The notes beneath the pieces were generated by a model, which did no database searches, had not been told where the DNA came from, and saw nothing but the letters and a program-made list of their open reading frames with translations. From Actinomyces oris (GTDB lineage: Bacteria > Actinomycetota > Actinomycetes > Actinomycetales > Actinomycetaceae): 64,000 nt of DNA. The stretch covers positions 126,191 to 190,190 of the forward strand of contig NZ_VICC01000001.1 in assembly GCF_006546825.1 (NCBI RefSeq), in the 5' to 3' direction. The position numbers and the translations under genes are program-made. This document shows, piece by piece, positions 5,960 through 14,776 of this stretch (positions within the stretch are counted from its first letter, which is position 1; every line of letters starts with the position of its first letter).

Positions 5960-6004
5960 GTGGCGGTAGCGCTGGGATTCGAACCCAGGGTGGCTATGAA
6001 CCAC
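5960..6004. other. attL: left copy of the 45-bp tRNA-Ser core
   Basis: This copy contains the encoded CCA, acceptor 3' strand, T-arm and variable-arm sequence of tRNA-Ser (reverse orientation) but stops there; the sequence beyond 6004 no longer matches the tRNA. It is identical to 14687-14731 over 45 of 45 bases, with mismatches immediately on both sides. Confidence 0.92.
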
Positions 6005-6110
6005 GTAGTAGCAGAGGGTTGCAGCACGGTCCACCCCTTTCGCTTTTCGGCACTATCTCAACGTTTCTGCTACAGCGAAGCACTAGGTAACTGCGAGTAG
6101 TTGGCGAGAG

Positions 6111-6130
6111 TTGTGGGCAATATGTGGGCA
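6111..6130 (+). repeat. Putative integrase arm-type site, left (P' arm)
   Basis: TTGTGGGCAATATGTGGGCA occurs here, 106 nt inside attL, and again at 14582-14601, 85 nt inside attR, in the same orientation. Each copy holds two TGTGGGCA words. Short repeated sites flanking the core on both arms are characteristic of attachment sites used by tyrosine integrases with an arm-binding domain. Confidence 0.6.
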
Positions 6131-6147
6131 CGGTCTATGCTCTTGGC

Positions 6148-6897
6148 GTGGACGAGACGTTCTGGGCTGCCGCCGGAGTCGTTGTGGCGCTGGTCGTGGG
6201 CCTTGGCGGCATCGGCTTGTCGTTGTGGAGCATCATCACTGCACGTACGGCGAACAGGACCGCCGAGGAAGCAAGCGGTGCTGCGGCTGAGGCGAACCGG
6301 CTCGCAGCGAAGGTGCATGCAGACAACCTCAAGCTGCAAGCGCCAATCCTTGTTGTGAAGACCTTCGCCCCTGGAGACACCGGAGTGCAGGTCGTGGTGC
6401 ACAACTACGGCTCCGGCCCGGCAGTCTCGGTAAGCATCCGCTTCGATGACGACGACACTAACGACCGCTTCCCGCCGTTCGCACCAGGCACGATGCGGGT
6501 GATTGAGGCTGGCGGGGACGGCGTGTTCTGGGCCCCCGTCAGGAGCGATGAGTATCTCGCTCGCGTGGGTCCCGACGGCCGTATACGCATCAGGTGGGCG
6601 AATCAGCTTGGGCAGTATCAGGAGGAACGATCTGCCACGCGAGCGGCCGCCAGGGGACTCTTCAACGCGATGCTTCGTCGCAGCATGCAACAGCTTCGTG
6701 AGTCGGATGACTCTCAACACCTCGAGTCGGACGAGCACGGCCAGGACGGCACCAAGCAGAGCAGCGCGGGAGAGAGCACAGGCAACGGGACTCAGGATGT
6801 CACGGAAACTGACCACGACTCCGTCGAATCCGGAGAGACCTCATCATCCGCTCCGGCGCCGCAAGACGGGATTCCCCCTCAGCCCCTTCCTCAGTGA
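6148..6897 (+). CDS. Single-pass membrane protein of the integrated element, 249 aa
   Basis: The protein has an N-terminal transmembrane helix (FWAAAGVVVALVVGLGGIGLSLWSII, about residues 4-30), then an Ala-rich helical segment that looks coiled-coil (TAEEASGAAAEANRLAAKVHADNLKLQAP), a beta-rich cytoplasmic domain (PILVVKTFAPGDTGVQVVVHNYGSGPAVSVSIRFDD), and a long acidic, Ser/Thr/Gln-rich disordered tail from about residue 180. I prefer GTG 6148, which lies 6 nt after TATGCT (leaderless type); an in-frame GTG at 6124 would lie within the arm-type repeat. It is the only rightward gene at this end and is not part of the main leftward block. Its function is unknown; exclusion or membrane-sensing roles are possible but unsupported. 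Confidence 0.7.
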   Translation: MDETFWAAAGVVVALVVGLGGIGLSLWSIITARTANRTAEEASGAAAEANRLAAKVHADNLKLQAPILVVKTFAPGDTGVQVVVHNYGSGPAVSVSIRFDDDDTNDRFPPFAPGTMRVIEAGGDGVFWAPVRSDEYLARVGPDGRIRIRWANQLGQYQEERSATRAAARGLFNAMLRRSMQQLRESDDSQHLESDEHGQDGTKQSSAGESTGNGTQDVTETDHDSVESGETSSSAPAPQDGIPPQPLPQ

Positions 6898-7069
6898 TTC
6901 CAAGGGATTATCCGTTTCCGAGGAATCGCGAAGAGCGCGAACTGACCACCACCCCACTTCCCGACCACACGGAAGCACCTCCAGTTTTCCGCAGCATCAC
7001 AGGCAAAAGTCCAAGTCTGGAGATTGCCAGACCCGTACACAGAAAAAACAACAGCATCTCACGGTAGTG

Positions 7070-7103
7070 GGGCGGGGTGGGGTACGGGGTCCCCACCCCG
7101 CCC
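7070..7103. terminator. 13-bp GC hairpin between convergent genes
   Basis: GGGCGGGGTGGGG (7070-7082) pairs perfectly with CCCCACCCCGCCC (7091-7103) around an 8-nt loop. It lies between the rightward membrane-protein gene and the leftward small-gene block, so it could terminate both transcripts. No U-tract follows directly; on the leftward strand a T-run appears about 25 nt on. Confidence 0.65.
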
Positions 7104-7160
7104 ACTTCCTCGAGTCGAACGTCTGTGCGACGGTTACGAGCGAGATGGCGCGCGGTGGTG

Positions 7161-8003
7161 TCAGCGGTAGATCTGTTCGAGGTCGCGCCAAGCGCTCTTG
7201 ATCTCTTGCAACCGCTCGACGGTGAGCTCGACGCCGTCGTCCATGGTGATCCTGCCGCCGTTGGGCACGAGGCTCTGGCCGGATTCGGAGAAGGCTGGCT
7301 CTTTGACCAGGACGTTCACGGGCAAGTCGATCCCGTTATGTCCGTGCTGGACGCCGGTGTAGGCAGGCAGATCCTCGCGCACCCGTATGAGTGTGCGCTG
7401 GCGCTCGAGCAGGGCGTGTTGCTTGGACAGGTCGAGCTCGGGAACCGCGATCTGCTCGGGGACGAATCCCATGGCCCTGTTCCGGGTTTGAAGCGCCGTG
7501 ATGAGACGGGGCAGCCCGACGTTGGCGTCGAACTGCGCAGCAGCGTTCCTGCACTGCGTCTCTGCCGAGTTCAGAGCTTCCTGATACGCATCGGCTGCGG
7601 ACTGGAACTCAGCTCTTGCGTTGGCGATGATCTTGTCGGCGTGCTCGATCATCAGGTCGCAGAGGCGGCGGTAGCTCTCCTCGAGGGCGGCGTGGGTGGC
7701 GGTGGCGGTAATGGAGGCGGCGTGGTTCTCCCGGTGGGCCCGGTCCACATTCGGGGTGGCGTCGAGTCCCTCGGTATCGCCGGCCAGGATCTTGTTCTTG
7801 AGGGCTTGGGCGTCAAGGAGCTCGGCGCTCTTCAGGTTCTGTTCACACGCCTCCTTGCTGGCGGCGACGTGGGTCTCCTCCCACTGGATCTCGAGGGCGT
7901 CGATCTTCCTGGCCAGGGCGACGACGTCAGCCGGGAAGATCCGTTCGTCGGTGGGGAGCACGGAGATGTTCTGGCGGTCGATGGCGGTGCTGTTGCGCTG
8001 CAT
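7161..8003 (-). CDS. Helical/coiled-coil protein of unknown function, 280 aa
   Basis: I do not recognise a family. The sequence is strongly helical: residues from about 15 to 70 (FPADVVALARKIDALEIQWEE..., SKEACEQNLKSAELLDAQAL) and about 100 to 150 (ALEESYRRLCDLMIEHADK, AEFQSAADAYQEALNSAETQ) look like coiled coils. A more variable C-terminal part includes NGGRITMDDGVELTVERLQEIKSAWRDL. No signal peptide or membrane segment is present. I start at ATG 8003, which has GAGGAG 6 nt upstream. It is the last gene of the leftward block and follows the preceding gene within 10 nt, so it is co-transcribed. Cysteines occur only as scattered residues, arguing against a metal site. Confidence 0.8.
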   Translation of the reverse strand: MQRNSTAIDRQNISVLPTDERIFPADVVALARKIDALEIQWEETHVAASKEACEQNLKSAELLDAQALKNKILAGDTEGLDATPNVDRAHRENHAASITATATHAALEESYRRLCDLMIEHADKIIANARAEFQSAADAYQEALNSAETQCRNAAAQFDANVGLPRLITALQTRNRAMGFVPEQIAVPELDLSKQHALLERQRTLIRVREDLPAYTGVQHGHNGIDLPVNVLVKEPAFSESGQSLVPNGGRITMDDGVELTVERLQEIKSAWRDLEQIYR

Positions 8004-8011
8004 GGTTCTCC

Positions 8012-8308
8012 TCACAGGGTTGGCATGGCCGCGGCTAGGTCAGAGGCCGTGGCGGTGGTGTTCGGGGACGTGAGGCGCTTGGCAACCTGCACCGCTCCGG
8101 AGTAGGCCGAGAAGATGCGGTTGTTGGCGGCATTGACGTCCTTGGCCGTGTAACCCTCTGCGAGGAGGGCGCGGCTCACCTGGCGGGCGTAGTCGGTGAC
8201 GGCTTCGTCTCCGCTTGCGAGCAGGTCGGTGGTGGTGGGGCGTCTGATGTCTGCGGCGATCTCTTCCAGGTGCCGCTGAGTGAATCGGAGTGTGGGCGGT
8301 GGTGTCAT
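8012..8308 (-). CDS. Small helical protein of unknown function, 98 aa
   Basis: A 98-residue protein (MTPPPTLRFTQRHLEEI... ending DLAAAMPTL) predicted to be mostly helical, with segments RQVSRALLAEGYTAKDVNAANNRIFSAYSGAVQVAKRL. AGGAAA precedes the ATG at a normal distance. It ends 8 nt before the next gene and its TGA lies just ahead of that gene's ribosome site, indicating one transcript. No recognisable motif; the family and function are unknown. Confidence 0.75.
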   Translation of the reverse strand: MTPPPTLRFTQRHLEEIAADIRRPTTTDLLASGDEAVTDYARQVSRALLAEGYTAKDVNAANNRIFSAYSGAVQVAKRLTSPNTTATASDLAAAMPTL

Positions 8309-8402
8309 GGTGTGTTTCCTTTCAGCCGTGCTGCGGTACGGGCAGCGGGGTTGTGTGGGATCGGACGGTGTCGGTCCCCGGCATGGTCCGGGGAGCCGGC
8401 AC

Positions 8403-8831
8403 CTACTTGGTGGTGACGTCGAGCAGCGCCGTCGTGGCGTCCTGCTCGGTGACGGCGGGGCGGGCCGCGGTGCCGGCGGCCCACATTGCTGCGGCCGTGC
8501 TGAAGCCGTCTGGGGCGCTGGCGGAGGCGGCGTTGGCGAGGGCCTCGGCGCCCAGGGAGGCCAGGGCGTCGAACTCTGCTGCGGCCTTGACGCGCTCGTT
8601 CCGGGTGGCGGTGAGGGCGTCGAGCATCTCCGTGCGTAGCCGGCGCCTGTCGGCGGGGTCGAGGTCGGCCAGGTCGGCGGCGAGCGTGGCCACGGCTGGG
8701 GCCTCGGAGATGAGTGTGAGGCCGGCGCAGCCCGTGGCTGCGAGGACGTCGAGCTGATGGCGGTGGGTGCCGCCGGTGAGGTCGTCTATGGCGTCTCGAA
8801 GGTGGGTGAAGGCAGGGGTGTTGGGTCGCAC
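8403..8831 (-). CDS. Small helical protein of unknown function, 142 aa
   Basis: I do not recognise this 142-residue protein. It is Ala-rich and mostly helical (AFTHLRDAIDDLTGG, LAADLADLDPADRRRLRTEMLDALTATRNERVKAAAEFDAL). I chose GTG 8831 because AAGGAA lies about 8 nt upstream, and because this leaves a 28-nt gap to the end of the replication gene rather than a long overlap. It belongs to the leftward block of the element. Confidence 0.7.
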   Translation of the reverse strand: MRPNTPAFTHLRDAIDDLTGGTHRHQLDVLAATGCAGLTLISEAPAVATLAADLADLDPADRRRLRTEMLDALTATRNERVKAAAEFDALASLGAEALANAASASAPDGFSTAAAMWAAGTAARPAVTEQDATTALLDVTTK

Positions 8832-8859
8832 GGTGGGGGTTCCTTCCTGGTGTTGTTGG

Positions 8860-9990
8860 TCAGGCCCGGGCGAGAGCTCGGGCAGGTGCGCGTCGGGGTG
8901 GCGTGGCCACGGCGGCGATCTCATCGGCCCGGCAAGCGGGGCACACGCCGCTGCGGGTCAGGGGGCGGTCATGGGTCGGGCAGTACCGGTCCGGGCTGCG
9001 GTTGCGGGACGGTGGCGGCGTGGCCACGGCGGCCCGTAGCGCGCGCACCAGCAGCCCAGGACCGGCGTCGGGTGGCAGGTCACTCAGGAGCAGCTGGATG
9101 TCCCGGGCACGCCATCCCCGAGCGGTGAGCGGAGCCACCAGCATCGCCACGTCGACGCGCAGCCCGATAGCGCACCGATGGCGACGGACGACGTCGACGG
9201 CGTCCCGACTCTCGCCCGGATCCCCCGCGCTCGCGGCCCCGGCGGAGCCGGCGGCCGTTGAGGTGCTCTCCTCCCGCCCGCCGTCGTCGAGCTCGTGCCC
9301 GCGCTCCGGTTGGTTGAGGGGGGTAGGGGGGAGGGGGATTGTTTGATCTTGGTCTGATCGGAGGACATGGTGTCCTCCCTGGAGTGCAGATTTGTCCTCC
9401 CTGGAGCACTCAGAGGGGACATGGTGTCCGCCCTGGGTGGGGTTATCCACAAGCGCCGCTGGGTTCAGGGAGGACATGGTGTCCTCTCTGGCGTGGTTAT
9501 CCACAGGGCTCGTGGTGGTCGGAGACGCTGTTGTGGTGTCCTCGGGGCGATCGGTACTGGCACCGATGGGGATGGTCTCACCACTGGCGGTGAGGACCTG
9601 GACGTCATCGGCACTGGCACCGATAACGGGTGGGATGGTGAGGGTGTAGCGGGGTGCGCGGTGCTGGGAGGCCTTGGCGGTGAGGGCGAGGAATCCGGTG
9701 GCCTCGAGCCGGCCCATCGCTCGCCGTACGTTGCGCCGGCTCATCCCGGTGGCTTCGGCGAGGCGCTGCTGGGGCGCCCAGGCGTCGCGCACGTCGCCGG
9801 CTCGGCGAGCCAGGACGCACGCGACGTGCCGGGCGGAGGGCTCCAGCGGGCTTGTGGGCGCCTCGACGGCGTCCAGCCACTCCCACTTGCTCGCAGCGAT
9901 CGCAAGGTTCCTGCCGGAACTGCGGCGGCCACTGGCGGCTACCGCAGCAGGCCCCATCGGCAGGGCCGCGAGCGCGGGGGTGGTGGTCAT
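8860..9990 (-). CDS. Winged-helix replication initiator-like protein, 376 aa
   Basis: The N-terminal half carries a helix-turn-helix: SARHVACVLARRAGDVRDAWAPQQRLAEATGMSRRNVRRAMGRLEATGFLAL (about residues 52-103), the arrangement seen in plasmid and element replication proteins with a GntR/MarR-like winged helix. Residues 145-215 form a low-complexity linker encoded by repetitive palindromic DNA. The C-terminal half has a helical region (DVAMLVAPLTARGWRARDIQLLLSDLP) and a putative zinc ribbon, YCPTHDRPLTRSGVCPAC. The ATG overlaps the preceding stop by ATGA. Within this gene are two perfect DnaA boxes and iteron-like repeats, so I infer that it is the element's initiator with an internal origin. 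A plain transcription regulator is the alternative. Confidence 0.75.
   Translation of the reverse strand: MTTTPALAALPMGPAAVAASGRRSSGRNLAIAASKWEWLDAVEAPTSPLEPSARHVACVLARRAGDVRDAWAPQQRLAEATGMSRRNVRRAMGRLEATGFLALTAKASQHRAPRYTLTIPPVIGASADDVQVLTASGETIPIGASTDRPEDTTTASPTTTSPVDNHAREDTMSSLNPAALVDNPTQGGHHVPSECSREDKSALQGGHHVLRSDQDQTIPLPPTPLNQPERGHELDDGGREESTSTAAGSAGAASAGDPGESRDAVDVVRRHRCAIGLRVDVAMLVAPLTARGWRARDIQLLLSDLPPDAGPGLLVRALRAAVATPPPSRNRSPDRYCPTHDRPLTRSGVCPACRADEIAAVATPPRRAPARALARA
9360..9545. other. Putative replication origin: iteron-like palindromes and two DnaA boxes
   Basis: A palindrome built on GGACA-TGG-TGTCC occurs at 9360-9378 (8-bp arms), 9416-9429 and 9470-9486, with half-sites TGTCCTCCCTGG at 9393-9404 and TGGTGTCCTCGG at 9534-9545. 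The centres near 9369, 9423, 9478 and 9535 are spaced about 54-57 nt. Two perfect DnaA boxes TTATCCACA lie at 9443-9451 and 9497-9505, each between repeats. Iterons plus DnaA boxes inside a rep gene are known from RepA_N-type plasmids. No AT-rich unwinding segment is obvious nearby. Confidence 0.7.
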
Positions 9991-10472
9991 GCGTCGTGCT
10001 CCTCGAGGTCTCGAGGGTCGTCGGGCATGAGGATGGGGGCGTAGACGGCGATGGTGGCCGGGGTTGTGGTGAAGGTAGGGGCGCCGTGGGTGAGGGTATG
10101 GAGTGCGGCTGTGGCTATTCGTGGGAGCTCGTCGGCGGGTAGGTCGGCGGCGGCGAGTGCCTCGATGCGGTCTGCGGTGTGGAGGTTGATGGTGCCGATG
10201 CGGCGGCGGATGCCTTCGGGGGCGTTGTCGTCCTCGACGTAGCGGATGGGCTGGGTGTCCCGCTCGATGGTGATGGCGGGCGTTGCCAGGGCGTGGGCAA
10301 GGTCGTCACGGGTGGTGGTGTCGACGGTCAGGCCGACGGCCGGCGCGACCACGTGGCATGTGGGGCGGAGAGTGGTGGGGCCTGCGGTGGCTGGTGGCCG
10401 TGGAGCGGCTGTGGGGAGGTCGAACATGGGTACGTCCTCCCATGGGGCGGGGGCTGGTCTGCGGCGTCTCAT
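9987..10472 (-). CDS. Unknown protein of the element, 161 aa
   Basis: Begins MRRRRPAPAPWEDVPMFDLP and continues with a mixed alpha/beta pattern (DDLAHALATPAITIERDTQPIRYVEDDNAPEGIRRRIGTINLHTADRI). The start overlaps the preceding stop as TTATGA, and the end overlaps the start of the replication gene, so this is a strictly coupled chain. Upstream in-frame codons are Arg/Pro/His-rich and look non-coding. The sequence IRYVEDDNAPEGIRRRIGTI suggests a small globular domain, but I cannot name it. Confidence 0.7.
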   Translation of the reverse strand: MRRRRPAPAPWEDVPMFDLPTAAPRPPATAGPTTLRPTCHVVAPAVGLTVDTTTRDDLAHALATPAITIERDTQPIRYVEDDNAPEGIRRRIGTINLHTADRIEALAAADLPADELPRIATAALHTLTHGAPTFTTTPATIAVYAPILMPDDPRDLEEHDA

Positions 10473-10912
10473 AAGGTCGCCATCTCCTGGTGGGTGGTCG
10501 CTGCTGGCTGCGTGGCGGCGGTGAGTGCTTCGAGCTCTTCGTCGAGGCGGGCGGTAGCTGGGATGGCGACACCGATGACCTGGCAGTCCTGGTGGTCTAG
10601 GTGTGGGCACTGCATGGCGACTGTCGTCCACTGGTCGGCGTGGGCGGCGACGTCGAAGGCGCATACGGCGATGGCGGGCAGGTCGGAGATCAGTAGGTCG
10701 GGGGCGACGCGCAGGAGGACTGCGTGGCCGTGCTGGATGTGGATGGTGGCGACGTCACGGAGCGCTCGCTGCTTGTGGTTGGGGAGCTCGTCGAGGAAGT
10801 ACTCGGTGCTCTGCTGGCGCACGCCGAACTTGATGCCGAGGGCGTCGAGCGTGGCCATGCTGTCGACGGTGGGGCAGGCGGTGGTGGGGGTGGCGTAGTA
10901 GTGCAGGCTCAT
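10469..10912 (-). CDS. Unknown protein of the element, 147 aa
   Basis: The sequence MSLHYYATPTTACPTVDSM is followed by LGIKFGVRQQSTEYFLDELPNHKQRALRDVATIHIQHGHAVLLRVAPDLLISDLPAIAVCAFDVAAH and a helical C-terminus. ATG 10912 has a consensus AGGAGG 8 nt upstream. The frame stays open to an ATG at 11062 that overlaps the preceding stop by ATGA and would add 50 residues beginning MTLTTPALAAPTAS; either start, or both, could be used. A CPHLDHQDC segment could bind metal. Family unknown. Confidence 0.7.
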   Translation of the reverse strand: MSLHYYATPTTACPTVDSMATLDALGIKFGVRQQSTEYFLDELPNHKQRALRDVATIHIQHGHAVLLRVAPDLLISDLPAIAVCAFDVAAHADQWTTVAMQCPHLDHQDCQVIGVAIPATARLDEELEALTAATQPAATTHQEMATL

Positions 10913-11024
10913 AGGGGTTGCCTCCTGGTGCGGGTTGAGGGGTTCTCCAAGGCGGGTGGGGATGGGGTGGTTGGGAACTCCGTGGGTGCCGGCCGTCGGG
11001 CCGGAGTGTTCAGCCCTGCTGCTC

Positions 11025-11054
11025 GCGGTTGGGGCCGCGAGCGCGGGGGTGGTG
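11025..11054 (-). repeat. 30-bp repeat encoding a shared TTPALAAP N-terminus (copy also at 11975-12004)
   Basis: A 30-bp sequence is identical at 11025-11054 and 11975-12004; a 23-bp part recurs at 9963-9985. All three sit just after an ATG and encode TTPALAAP-like N-termini of three different leftward proteins. The similarity extends through the start codon. Confidence 0.7.
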
Positions 11055-11058
11055 AGGG

Positions 11059-11520
11059 TCATCGTGGTGTCCACGTCCCTGCGGTCTGGTAGGCCTCGAG
11101 GGCACGGGTGTAGGTATCCAGGGCTGTGCGTAGGTGCTGGGCTGCCTCGGGTGAGTCGATGACGACGTCGGGGATCACGAGGACGGGGGCGTCGAGGTTG
11201 CAGATCGCGGTGATTCTCACGGGTGTGTTGACGCCGGTGCCGGGGACGGGGCCGAGGTCGGCGATGTGCTGGCCGGGGAGGCAGGCGGTGGGGTGGCACC
11301 ACGGCAGGTGGCCGGTGGGGGATGAAGCCGTTGGCGTGGGCTCGGCGTCGTCGGGGTTGCCCCATCGTCCGCGGCCGTGGTCGTCGTTCGTGGTCACGGA
11401 GCTTGTCGTGGCCACGGGCGAGTCGAGTCGTCCTGAACCGGCGAGGACGTCCGGGCGGGCGCCTTCGGGGTGGGAGTAGCTGGGTGTGCTGGCGGGGGTG
11501 CAGGTGGTTGGGGGTAGCAT
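11059..11520 (-). CDS. Unknown protein of the element, 153 aa
   Basis: After a Thr/Pro/Ser-rich N-terminus of about 70 residues comes LPWCHPTACLPGQHIADLGPV and a strand-rich section (VRITAICNLDAPVLVIPDVVIDSPEAAQHLRTALDTYTRALEAYQ). The WCxxxxC...H pattern near the middle resembles small actinobacterial plasmid-associated proteins such as DUF6907, but this is a loose resemblance. It is followed without a gap by the next coupled gene. The exact start is uncertain: ATG 11520 has no strong ribosome site. Confidence 0.6.
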   Translation of the reverse strand: MLPPTTCTPASTPSYSHPEGARPDVLAGSGRLDSPVATTSSVTTNDDHGRGRWGNPDDAEPTPTASSPTGHLPWCHPTACLPGQHIADLGPVPGTGVNTPVRITAICNLDAPVLVIPDVVIDSPEAAQHLRTALDTYTRALEAYQTAGTWTPR

Positions 11521-11547
11521 TGTGGTGATCCGATCTACTGGCTTGGG

Positions 11548-12015
11548 TCAGGCCCCCGCGTTGCTGACTGGCGCGGGGGTCGTCTTGTTGGTTGTCCTGC
11601 TGCGGCTTCGGCTGCGGTGCGAGCGCGGGACGGCTGCGGTGGTGGGTTCTGGTGCTGTGCGGCCGTGGTTGAGGCGGGCGCGGATGGTGTCGAAGCCGGT
11701 GCGGCGGATCCGCCAGTGGCCGTTGTCGGGCAGCTGGTAGGCAGGGAGGAGCCCGGTGCGGCACATGGCTTCTACGGCTTGGCGGTTGGTGCGCATGATG
11801 CGGGCGGCCTCGGCGGTGGTCAGGTCGCAGCCTCGGGCGGCCTCGAGGGCGCGGGCGGCTGCGGCGTTGAGGGCGGGGGTGTCGAGCTCGTAGGCGTTGG
11901 TCAGGCCCAGAAGTGCCAGAGCCGTACGCGCATCGACGGGGTTGACGGCTGGGGCGAGGTCGGCCGGTGTTGGTGCGGTTGGGGCCGCGAGCGCGGGGGT
12001 GGTGCCGGTGGTCAT
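11548..12015 (-). CDS. MerR/excisionase-fold HTH protein, 155 aa
   Basis: The middle of the protein holds LTTAEAARIMRTNRQAVEAMCRTGLLPAYQLPDNGHWRIRRTGFDTI (about 64-110), a textbook HTH_17/AlpA-type winged helix with the recognition helix NRQAVEAMCRTG and the GHWRIRRTGF wing. The C-terminal 40 residues are Arg/Ser/Thr-rich and basic. The N-terminus MTTGTTPALAAPTAP is shared with two other genes of the element. It is encoded 18 nt downstream of another HTH_17 protein. It may be a second excisionase or a transcription activator of the block. Confidence 0.75.
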   Translation of the reverse strand: MTTGTTPALAAPTAPTPADLAPAVNPVDARTALALLGLTNAYELDTPALNAAAARALEAARGCDLTTAEAARIMRTNRQAVEAMCRTGLLPAYQLPDNGHWRIRRTGFDTIRARLNHGRTAPEPTTAAVPRSHRSRSRSRTTNKTTPAPVSNAGA

Positions 12016-12033
12016 CGTGGTGCGCCTGTCGGG

Positions 12034-12273
12034 TCAGGCGTCGGCCAGGACGCTGGCGGGGTCGGTGACGCACTCGGCGAGGTAGTTGTCGAGGTCCTCG
12101 AGGCGGTAGCGGATCTTGCCGCGTTTGCCGCCTCCGAGCTTGAGGTAGCGGGGGCCTCGGCCCTGGAAGCGCCAGCCGGCGAGTGTCTGGGGTGCGTAGC
12201 CGAGGTAGTCGGCGGCTTCCTTGGGTGACAGGGTGCCCGACAGGCCGGACAGCGGGGCAGCGGGATCAGGCAT
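12034..12273 (-). CDS. AlpA/Xis-like HTH_17 protein, 79 aa
   Basis: The sequence GTLSPKEAADYLGYAPQTLAGWRFQGRGPRYLKLGGGKRGKIRYRLEDLDNYLAECV is the classic HTH_17 excisionase fold: helix-turn-helix SPKEAADYLGYAPQTLAGW and the wing YRLEDLDNYL. I start at ATG 12273, which has GGAGG 5 nt upstream; a start at 12285 is also open. It is the first gene of the leftward block and is divergent from the XRE gene, so it probably acts as excisionase or as activator for the block, under control of the repressor. Confidence 0.85.
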   Translation of the reverse strand: MPDPAAPLSGLSGTLSPKEAADYLGYAPQTLAGWRFQGRGPRYLKLGGGKRGKIRYRLEDLDNYLAECVTDPASVLADA

Positions 12274-12285
12274 GGCAACCTCCAT

Positions 12286-12396
12286 ATCGAATGACCTGAT
12301 TCGAGATCAGTGTCATACTAACACGTTTTTCGTGTTGCTCTAACATTGATATCGTGTTGTCTATGCGGTATTGCAGTCAACAGTTACGATTGCAGG
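12286..12396. promoter_or_regulatory. Divergent control region between AlpA-like and XRE genes
   Basis: Two inverted repeats are present: CTGAT-TCGAG-ATCAG (12296-12310) and AACACG-TTTTT-CGTGTT (12320-12336), plus a third CGTGTTG word at 12353-12359. The region is AT-rich against the element background. TACGAT (12385-12390) lies 6 nt before the GTG at 12397. This looks like a lysogeny-type switch with operators for the XRE protein. Confidence 0.65.
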
Positions 12397-12915
12397 GTGG
12401 CTAAGGTGGATGACGAACGCATCGGCGCGCTTGTTGCTCGCGCGCGAGCGGAAGCAGGACTGTCACAGTCGGCTTTGGCTGAACGTGTGTCCTCGACTGA
12501 TGGCATGGCGTGGACCCAGACCACGGTGTGGAACATCGAGCACGGGGAGCGGGCCTTACGTGCTTCAGAGCTCCCAACTTTGGCTGTGGCACTAGGAGTG
12601 ACCGTCGACCTACTCCTGCGCGGAGTCGGTGGTCCTTACACGGCTCGCGCAGCGATCCGAGACCTCAAACGGGCGCACGAAGAGCTGGGGTGGAGGCTTG
12701 CCGACTTCGCAACTGCGCGAACAGAGGTAGCAGACCTTGATGCCGAGGATGCCGAAACCCTTGGCGACCTAGATCCTGAGGATGCGAGCGCAGCGCTAGC
12801 CTCTTACACACTCCGAAGCGCCGCCGAAGTAGCAGCAACCAGTGTTTCTGAACTGTGGGCCGAAGAGAGGGCGGGTAACGCCCCTCTGACCGGTGAGGAC
12901 ATCTTGAACATGTGA
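12397..12915 (+). CDS. XRE-family repressor of the integrated element, 172 aa
   Basis: The N-terminal HTH_XRE domain is clear: RIGALVARARAEAGLSQSALAERVSSTDGMAWTQTTVWNIEHGERALRASELPTLAVALGVTVDLLL (about 6-72). The C-terminal half is helical and acidic (DLKRAHEELGWRLADFATARTEVADLDAEDAETLGDLDPEDAS) and may dimerise or bind an inducer. No Ser-Lys autocleavage motif of LexA-like repressors is visible, so derepression may need a partner protein, as with Stl of phage satellites. The GTG start is 6 nt after TACGAT, suggesting a leaderless transcript. It is divergent from the AlpA-like gene and upstream of the integrase on the same strand. Confidence 0.85.
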   Translation: MAKVDDERIGALVARARAEAGLSQSALAERVSSTDGMAWTQTTVWNIEHGERALRASELPTLAVALGVTVDLLLRGVGGPYTARAAIRDLKRAHEELGWRLADFATARTEVADLDAEDAETLGDLDPEDASAALASYTLRSAAEVAATSVSELWAEERAGNAPLTGEDILNM

Positions 12916-13278
12916 GTCCTGCTGGCGGGGTGAACTGGGTTGTGGGCTCCCGCTGCGGGTGGTGGGGCGTGTCGTGCGCGTCCTGCTAGTGGGGGCGTGC
13001 TCGCACGTCTCCGTGAGAGGCCCACCGTCGGCCGCCGGCCCCGCTACAGGCATGGGGGCGTGGCCACGGGCGGTCCTCTCGGGTGAGGTGGCCGGCGGCT
13101 GCCTCACAGCGCCGGAGGCGGGTGGTCGGTCCCCCGCCACGGCCCGGGACTACGGCGCACGCCGCCAGGCCCGGAAGGTGCCCCGGCGCAGTCCCGGGCA
13201 CCCCGCATCCCCTACCGCACGACGGCCACCCCAGTAGGCGGCTGACGAAGCTGGTGGGGCAGTCAGGAAGGGCCGACA
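12916..13278. other. Non-coding 363-nt gap upstream of the integrase
   Basis: No convincing gene is seen on either strand; frames here are Arg/Pro-rich and lack ribosome sites. The stretch is GC-rich and could fold into several hairpins. It separates the repressor gene from the integrase gene and may hold the integrase promoter or an untranslated RNA. Confidence 0.4.
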
Positions 13279-14622
13279 GTGGCGACCATAGAGGCGTACA
13301 GGACAGCGAAGGGCGAGAAGCGGTGGAGGGTGCGCTACCGCACTCCGGAGCGCCGTCAGACCGACAAGCGCGGTTTCAGGAGGAAGGCGGACGCGGCGGC
13401 CTTCGCGGCGTCCGTCGAGGTATCCAAGTCCATGGGGGCCTACGTGCCCGCGAGCGCGGGGCGGGTGACGGTCGGTGACCTGTCCGGGCCGTGGCTTGAG
13501 CGGAGGCGTGGCGTGGTCAAGCCGAAGACGGCGGTGATGGATGAGTCTGCGGTGCGGGTGCACGTGCTGCCGCGCTGGGGTGGTGTGGCCGTGGGTGATG
13601 TGCGGGCCTCGGCGGTGCAGGCGTGGGTCAGTGAGCTCGTGGCCGGCGGGGCGGGGTCGTCGACAGTGCAGGCGGCGCATGGGGCGCTGCGGAAGATCTT
13701 GCAGGATGCGGTGACGGATCGGCAGATCGTCGTGAACCCGGCTGCCGGTGTGCGCCTGCCGAAGGTGGTGCGGCGTCGTCGGACGTACCTCGACGTCGAG
13801 CAGCTGGCGCGGTTGGCCGTGTGCGCCGGGGAGCTGGGGCCGGTGTTCCTGGTCCTGGGGTGGACGGGGCTGCGGTTCGGTGAGCTGGCCGGCTTGCGCG
13901 TGGAGGACGTCGACGTGCTGCGGAGGCGGCTGACGGTGCGTAGGACGGTGTCGGAGGTGGCCGGGCGGCTTGTGGAGGGGACGCCTAAGACGGCGCAGGG
14001 AATCAGGTCGGTGCCGTTCCCGGCGTTCCTGGCGCCGGTGGTTGGGGCGCAGCTGGCGGGGAAGGCACCGGATCGTGAGGCCTTCTCCTCGCCCCTGGGC
14101 GGGCCTCTGCGGGGCAACTACATCCGTCGGCGGTTCTTGGCGCCCGCCCGGGCGCTCGCGGGTACCGCTGTGGAGCGTGTGCAGGCTGCGGTGGGCGTGG
14201 CCACGAGTGCGCGGGGGCCTGTCTACGGGGAGGCGACGGTAGCGGCTGTGAGGGCCTGGCAGGCCCGTCACGGGCTGGCGGCCACGGGTGCGGTGGACGT
14301 GGCGACGTGGGAGGCGCTGGAGGCCGCTGAGGGGCTGGAGGGGCCGGCGCTGGTGCTTGAGGAGGGGGCCAGGGACTTCGGGGCTCTGACGCTGCACGAT
14401 CTGCGGCACACGGCGGCGTCGTTGGCGATCAGCTCGGGTGCGAACGTGAAGGCGGTTCAGACGATGTTGGGGCACCGGTCGGCGGCGATGACGCTCGACG
14501 TCTACGCAGACCTGTTCCCTGATGACCTGGACGCCGTGGCCGGTGCTCTTGATGCTTTGGGTAGCGCCACGACGTCGGAGATTGTGGGCAATATGTGGGC
14601 AATTCGGCCCGTGGCGGTGTGA
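13279..14622 (+). CDS. int: Tyrosine recombinase (integrase) with an inserted peptidoglycan-binding-like domain
   Basis: A 447-residue site-specific integrase, GTG start. An N-terminal arm-binding segment (about 1-55) is followed by a core-binding domain (62-160) and the catalytic domain. Catalytic residues are R199 (TGLRFGEL), K237 (GTPKT), H373 and R376 (LHDLRHTAA), H399 (LGHRS) and Y409 (DVYADLFP). Between the lysine and HxxR motif, residues 297-350 read AVERVQAAVGV...GPVYGEATVAAVRAWQARHGLAATGAVDVATWEAL, which is the pattern of a PG_binding_1 domain, not part of normal integrases. The catalytic set is intact, so it is probably active. It lies next to attR, as expected, and would cut in the tRNA-Ser 3' half. 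Confidence 0.93.
   Translation: MATIEAYRTAKGEKRWRVRYRTPERRQTDKRGFRRKADAAAFAASVEVSKSMGAYVPASAGRVTVGDLSGPWLERRRGVVKPKTAVMDESAVRVHVLPRWGGVAVGDVRASAVQAWVSELVAGGAGSSTVQAAHGALRKILQDAVTDRQIVVNPAAGVRLPKVVRRRRTYLDVEQLARLAVCAGELGPVFLVLGWTGLRFGELAGLRVEDVDVLRRRLTVRRTVSEVAGRLVEGTPKTAQGIRSVPFPAFLAPVVGAQLAGKAPDREAFSSPLGGPLRGNYIRRRFLAPARALAGTAVERVQAAVGVATSARGPVYGEATVAAVRAWQARHGLAATGAVDVATWEALEAAEGLEGPALVLEEGARDFGALTLHDLRHTAASLAISSGANVKAVQTMLGHRSAAMTLDVYADLFPDDLDAVAGALDALGSATTSEIVGNMWAIRPVAV
14582..14601 (+). repeat. Putative integrase arm-type site, right (P arm)
   Basis: Second copy of TTGTGGGCAATATGTGGGCA, inside the 3' end of the integrase gene where it encodes IVGNMWA. It is 85 nt from attR and matches the copy at 6111-6130 in sequence and orientation. 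Confidence 0.6.
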
Positions 14623-14638
14623 TCGGCCGGGAACTAGG

Positions 14639-14679
14639 AAGGCCCGTCACCGCGACTTTTCGTTGCGGCGACGGGCCTT
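14639..14679. terminator. Bidirectional hairpin between integrase and tRNA-Ser
   Basis: AAGGCCCGTC (14639-14648) pairs with GACGGGCCTT (14670-14679); an inner CCGC/GCGG extension shortens the loop. It can end the rightward integrase transcript and the leftward tRNA transcript. Because it lies inside the element, it replaces the tRNA terminator displaced to 5918-5956. Confidence 0.7.
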
Positions 14680-14686
14680 TCCCGTG

Positions 14687-14731
14687 GTGGCGGTAGCGCT
14701 GGGATTCGAACCCAGGGTGGCTATGAACCAC
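14687..14731. other. attR: right copy of the 45-bp core, within tRNA-Ser
   Basis: This copy overlaps the 3' half of the intact tRNA-Ser(CGA), from the encoded CCA through the T-arm into the variable arm. It restores the functional tRNA after integration. It is identical to 5960-6004. Confidence 0.92.
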
Positions 14732-14776
14732 ACAGACTTTCGAGATCTGCACCTTCGGCCGCTCGGACACGCTACC
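14688..14776 (-). tRNA. tRNA-Ser(CGA), CCA encoded
   Basis: Read leftward from 14776, the acceptor strand GGTAGCG pairs with CGCTACC, followed by discriminator G and encoded CCA. The D-arm, an anticodon loop CTCGAAA with anticodon CGA, a long class II variable arm (GTGGTTCATAGCCACC) and the T-loop GTTCGAATCCC are all present. The long variable arm and CGA anticodon identify a serine tRNA reading UCG. It is the integration target of the adjacent element. Confidence 0.97.

Follow-up and report, generated by a model that had tools for sequence, protein, structure and literature searches.

A PG_binding_1-type domain within the catalytic domain of an Actinomyces oris tyrosine integrase

Described systems and the window integrase

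The PG_binding_1 fold normally belongs to cell-wall proteins. Such a domain (PGBD) is present in the cell-wall enzymes SleC, DD-peptidase, AP3 endolysin and SleB, whereas the one considered here lies inside a recombinase; in the protease CtpB a PGBD-type domain is C-terminal and serves dimerization, whereas ours is an internal insertion. The enzyme that carries it is a tyrosine integrase, which we regard as cytoplasmic because it is a DNA recombinase, and it is encoded in a window (the whole stretch of 64,000 nucleotides analysed) of the Actinomyces oris genome.

Catalytic-domain insertions of other kinds are known among the tyrosine recombinases. The Tn1549/Tn916-type integrases (IntTn916 subgroup; PDB 6en2, 6emz) have a beta-hairpin, H248-P263, between the second and third strands (PMC5871717, PMC8138268, both available in part), whereas the insert of the window integrase is modelled as a helical PGBD that follows residue 294, just before the HxxR helix. 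The integron integrase also has a catalytic-domain insertion, called essential for integron function in the accessible portion of PMC8138268; a PGBD nature of that insertion is not described in that portion, and we liken it to ours by description only. The integrase of the Gordonia phage Schmidt is homologous to the window integrase (43.9% identity over the 73% covered, in a match that skips part of the query). The uninserted actinobacterial loci in our 64-sequence alignment have the same catalytic residues as the window integrase, and the Kocuria, Microbacteriaceae and other loci examined are without the insert, their linker being either short or furnished with smaller extensions.

A precedent for this architecture was not found in the open-licence literature searched, the coverage of which is incomplete: judged from titles and abstract openings, none of it describes a PGBD inside a tyrosine recombinase. 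In the recombinase survey PMC8138268 the word "peptidoglycan" does not occur in the available main text, the two Pfam codes appear in the accessible part of PMC3581485 only in sentences that have nothing to do with each other, and a search for literature on the integron helix returned no paper. Pfam itself names the two parts separately, as PF00589 and PF01471. The arrangement constitutes a natural domain insertion in the catalytic core of a recombinase that leaves the active-site residues intact, and it marks a spot next to the HxxR helix that accepts an insertion and through which regulation could enter.

The integrase, its insert and the integrated element

The window integrase has arm- and core-binding-type domains in its N-terminal part, followed by a split catalytic domain (Table 1). 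The latter matches PF00589 (Phage_integrase) at 54.3 bits against a curated cut-off of 27.1 (E 1.8e-14). Six residues, R199, K237, H373, R376, H399 and Y409, are invariant across the 64 aligned sequences; these correspond to the catalytic set of the family (R-K-H-R-H-Y), every member of which is intact, as the initial annotation had maintained. In the PHROGs comparison, integrase families match the two outer parts of the 447-aa protein and endolysin families cover its middle, and in NCBIfam no model scored above its cut-off for any of the four carrier proteins scanned. An antisense open frame of 441 aa (window 13150-14475, minus strand) overlaps the integrase gene and is probably a by-product of the high G+C content.

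The initial annotation had recognized a PG_binding_1-like segment between K237 and the HxxR box, and this is borne out by the profile search: PF01471 matches the integrase with 39.9 bits (gathering cut-off 23; E 4.9e-10), a score far beyond chance for a scan of 24,736 models. The match spans residues 315-347, or positions 25-57 of the 57-position profile, and when residues 285-370 were searched alone they reached 41.7 bits. AlphaFold2 models the inserted domain at high confidence, with a mean pLDDT of 93.7 within the full protein and of 89.4 in isolation; the insert is thus predicted to fold alone, which answers the structural question raised at the outset. Its three modelled helices, at 297-304, 318-330 and 341-351, fit the residues 297-350 originally assigned to it. 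In the model, the insert is preceded by the helix that comes ahead of the HxxR box and followed by the HxxR helix (K), and the former (residues 279-294) is equated, by its modelled position, with helix J of Tn1549 Int. The initial annotation had allowed for ordinary integrase sequence aligning with the segment; the uninserted relatives are instead without it and place no ordinary sequence opposite it.

A fold search with the domain gave 23 rows, of which at least one, 1rr7, is an unrelated chain and another, the secretion-system chain 4g54, was left uncounted. The matches include SleC (9h68), the DD-peptidase 1lbu, the AP3 endolysin 5nm7, SleB (6tci) and CtpB; we call the remaining chains PGBD-type on the basis of their titles, the CtpB paper and general background on the fold. 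The possibility that the insert is an artefact, produced by a frameshift, a misassembly or a chance pattern, has a negligible probability in view of the PF01471 E value and the presence of the same architecture across 31 genomes; a chance pattern in particular was rejected on the E value and bit score. The insert is a genuine PG_binding_1-type fold, and the integrase whose catalytic domain it interrupts is intact in other respects.

Table 1. Features of the window integrase and of the element that contains it
Feature	Window coordinates	Strand	Basis
Tyrosine integrase CDS, 447 aa, GTG start	13279..14622	+	Pfam, alignment, structure model
Helix preceding insert, residues 279-294	14113..14160	+	structure model
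Inserted segment, residues 296-367 (TAV...GARDF)	14164..14379	+	missing from uninserted relatives
PG_binding_1-type three-helix fold, about residues 296-352	14164..14334	+	Pfam, AlphaFold2, fold search
Integrated element, 8,727 bp between the starts of the two repeats	5960..14731	.	repeats, empty site
Far attachment repeat, 45 bp, equal to tRNA-Ser 3' end	5960..6004	.	repeat search
Near attachment repeat, 45 bp, overlapping tRNA-Ser gene	14687..14731	.	repeat search, empty site in sisters
tRNA-Ser (CGA), integration target	14688..14776	-	
Replication-initiation-like protein with HTH_36	8860..9990	-	Pfam, PHROGs
Second HTH_17 protein, excisionase-like match weak	11548..12015	-	Pfam, PHROGs
HTH_17 small protein, excisionase-like	12034..12285	-	Pfam, PHROGs
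HTH_31 repressor-like protein	12346..12915	+	Pfam, PHROGs

The gene ends next to a tRNA-Ser gene, and the 45-bp repeat is perfect at both ends of the element. Among the eight loci compared, both flanks join at the 45-bp core in the sister genome G007, which thus provides an empty site, and a second sister genome, G026, is also without the element. Perfect repeats and an empty site in sisters indicate, at the level of sequence, that the window integrase is a tRNA-targeting enzyme that has worked. Six element proteins have neither a Pfam nor a PHROG match at E <= 0.01, defence-gene models matched none of the seven element proteins compared with them, and none of the proteins searched from the window element matched a phage major head protein. 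The search for attachment repeats covered the surroundings of tRNAs at 11 further carrier loci, of which five hold a tRNA. Exact repeats were found in three of these five (tRNA-His, 46 bp; tRNA-Thr, 72 bp; tRNA-Arg, 49 bp), so insert carriers do integrate into tRNA genes; no repeat was found in the other two, L272 and L238, where the flanks are short or truncated. Sister elements in the genomes G043 and G008 contain phage major head protein genes (L273:3302-4516 and L274:12745-13653) and are only about 8 kb in size; a head protein gene in an element of this size suggests that they are phage-satellite-like.

Distribution and evolutionary history of the insert

The insert was found at the same place in integrases of 31 genomes, one per species, belonging to two families: four of the 213 genomes of the window's family and 27 of the 200 of a second family. 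A set of 199 genomes (the window's included) held five carriers beyond the window's own. In the second-family search 35 of the 200 genomes passed, 27 of which were read with the insert and one of which, G629, has it on a contig that ends before the HxxR box; seven of the 35 had short matches (373 aa), and both of those examined were without it. In one second-family genus 12 of the 13 genomes match, G629 included; in Isoptericola, of the same family, eight of the 18 genomes match, the carrier G145 among them. PF01471 matches all 31 insert-bearing proteins at E <= 0.1 and 30 of them at E <= 1e-4. The survey of actinobacterial integrases that the initial annotation had called for thus located the same insertion in two families, and its suggestion of a recent event fares less well: a recent single insertion was rejected on the presence of the insert in both families and in 12 of the 13 genomes of one genus, and dN/dS values below 1 in all of the pairs compared (see below) tell against it as well. 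The insert is not unique to the window integrase, nor is it of recent date. The match in G795 (L238) holds an in-frame TGA, so the gene may be decayed, and only the piece after the stop codon was used.

Broader samples, in which four candidates were scored per genome so that carriers were possibly missed, yielded little. Nine of 396 genomes in the order sample matched at E <= 1e-95, the class sample (394 genomes) gave at least two full-length matches among the matches listed, and the single match in the phylum sample (396 genomes) was the window's own. With four candidates per genome, no carrier was seen outside the order in either the class or the phylum sample. Of the 289 loci that were fetched, the HxxR-Tyr segment is present in 276; the insert occurs in 52 of these records, representing the same 31 genomes, many of them fetched twice, and 224 are without it, from which we conclude that the domain is dispensable for enzymes of this kind.

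A search of IMG/VR with the single integrase sequence returned no relative. With the alignment A1, 148 viral stretches were found to encode relatives, and an HMM of the insert detected it in none of the 80 that were kept; in genome_contigs, the same HMM detected it in one of 80 loci, the locus of the carrier G145. We preferred this HMM result to measurement of the spacer, which was impossible on nine of 220 frames and misplaced the lysine in some others. An exact, and strict, degenerate pattern of the insert's C-terminal junction had no match in viral_contigs. Compared alone with a phage collection, the insert matched 17 records, each of which is annotated as an endolysin, a peptidase or a lysin. 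The 240-position integrase profile phrog_7685 aligns with both the PGBD (positions 12-51) and the HxxR-Tyr segment (181-226), so a further arrangement of PGBD plus recombinase may exist in phages; in a set of 19 genomes, no single match was found to join the two.

In trees built without the insert (quick searches), the carriers fall in two groups, one comprising the three carriers that belong to the window's genus and the other the second family with G795; the sister of the second group as a whole is an uninserted row, L205. An AU test rejects a single carrier clade (p 9.6e-5, log-likelihood 81.8 lower), a result for 12 carriers and 20 others, hand-chosen from 81 rows, that long branches may influence. 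Yet the insertion point and the junction motif G[ADC]xDF are common to all 31 carriers of both groups, and the motif is absent from all 192 rows (183 distinct) that represent other loci. Backbones that do not form a clade, combined with a common junction, suggest that one module has passed between integrase lineages. In regional comparisons with the window integrase (8 of the 81 rows skipped, one being the reference), 25 of 27 second-family rows resemble the window integrase more in the insert (about 30-47% identity) than in the N-terminal half (27-33%), and the remaining two, L235 and L258, resemble it equally in both. By these sequence comparisons, the insert most likely arose once in an integrase and later moved between integrase genes via recombination; convergent capture by separate integrase lineages is a possible alternative. 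That the insert sits on two different backbones is a sign of modular evolution within a catalytic domain.

The dN/dS ratio of the PGBD was below 1 in all of 16 hand-chosen pairs, the PGBD comprising only about 55 codons. In the 15 second-family pairs it ranged from 0.12 to 0.85 (median 0.41), compared to 0.05-0.19 for residues 1-170, 0.08-0.37 for residues 171-294 and 0-0.11 for residues 368-430, and the PGBD was the fastest-evolving of the four regions in every one of these pairs. For the single pair belonging to the window's genus the PGBD value was 0.36, versus 0.42, 0.39 and 0.15 for the other three regions, and the PGBD was not the fastest. The domain is retained, yet no other part of the protein is as loose in the second family. 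The linkers around it vary greatly in length among carriers. Smaller extensions at the same linker were observed in other relatives (L139, L121, L117 and others), an indication that the site is tolerant of length; in L255, L256, L260 and L261, all of one genus, the PGBD itself is expanded between the first helix and the second.

A candidate role and the putative chromosomal copies

What might such a domain do inside a recombinase? We tentatively propose, giving the idea slightly less than an even chance, that it sits on the catalytic domain as a module for docking other proteins or for assembly, which is close to the protein-protein or regulatory module that the initial annotation had considered. 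The domain would not bind the cell wall; it would instead dock a neighbouring protomer, an excision factor or a host protein onto the catalytic domain, and such docking could influence the assembly or the direction of the recombination complex. In the accessible part of the CtpB paper this fold acts as a dimerization motif (PMC3808539), and removal of the Tn1549 hairpin is reported, in the text available, to impair cleavage and strand exchange (PMC5871717); it is these two precedents together that favour a docking or assembly role. The fold and its position, its natural use, its retention, the dN/dS below 1 and the transfer of the module all speak for this role. On the other side, the fast evolution of the PGBD in the second family and the variable linkers also fit a loosely tolerated domain, G008 has a visibly degraded PGBD motif yet its element is bounded by a 72-bp repeat, and 224 of the 276 loci are without the insert.

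The same observations bear on a less probable, though credible, explanation, that a self-folding domain without a dedicated function sits as a passenger in a length-tolerant linker and leaves catalysis undisturbed; the initial annotation, too, had allowed for an insertion tolerated at a surface loop. Extensions of other kinds at this linker in some relatives, a PGBD less constrained than any other region in all 15 second-family pairs, and hypervariable linkers on its two sides are as expected of a passenger. A fold and a junction that do not differ among the 31 carriers are not, and neither is the insert's presence on two integrase backbones and in 12 of 13 genomes within a single genus. In our analysis, docking or assembly would be favoured over a tolerated passenger.

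The good PF01471 match and the genuine cell-wall enzymes among the structural matches lend some colour to a third proposal, in which cell-wall precursors in the cytoplasm, or recycled muropeptides, are ligands of the domain, so that integration or excision would be coupled to the state of the envelope. We think this improbable, since the fold is a non-binding module elsewhere, as in CtpB (PMC3808539, the part available), and since second-family copies of the domain change rapidly. That the insert is a working precursor or muropeptide sensor which gates a DNA recombinase is a claim to which we would give very little credence; if the sensor reading were true, the excision of the element and a near-core recombinase of one genus would respond to the state of the envelope.

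The domain could alternatively touch DNA beside helix J and modify site recognition, in the manner of the beta-hairpin of Tn1549 Int. It directly follows the helix equated with helix J, which is among the DNA-contacting elements of Tn1549 Int, and that enzyme's own catalytic-domain insertion touches DNA (PMC5871717, the portion available). Nonetheless, basic residues are not in excess over acidic ones in the PGBD core of 27 of the 31 carriers, and the window's core, cut short in that count, has four basic and six acidic residues when recounted; a DNA-contact extension is accordingly quite improbable. Docking or assembly is thus the role we continue to favour for the domain.

The copies in Isoptericola and in the genus with 12 of 13 matching genomes seem to be placed differently from that of the window. 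No tRNA was found within the stretches fetched for these two genera (mostly 1.5 kb per side; 6 kb at eight loci), and the neighbours of the integrase are common to different species. In both genera an epimerase-family gene (PF01370 in L265), which we read as GalE, lies near the integrase. This suggests that the integrase there may be a resident chromosomal recombinase and not part of a young mobile element, and a near-core enzyme, beside which no tRNA was found, in the genus with 12 of 13 raises the question of a host function. A KfrA_N-family gene (L265:4839-5867; Pfam-tested in L265 only) is found downstream of the integrase in five of five Isoptericola loci, L264, L265, L266, L275 and L276, either directly 3' of it or one small frame away, and its product may be a partner of the integrase.
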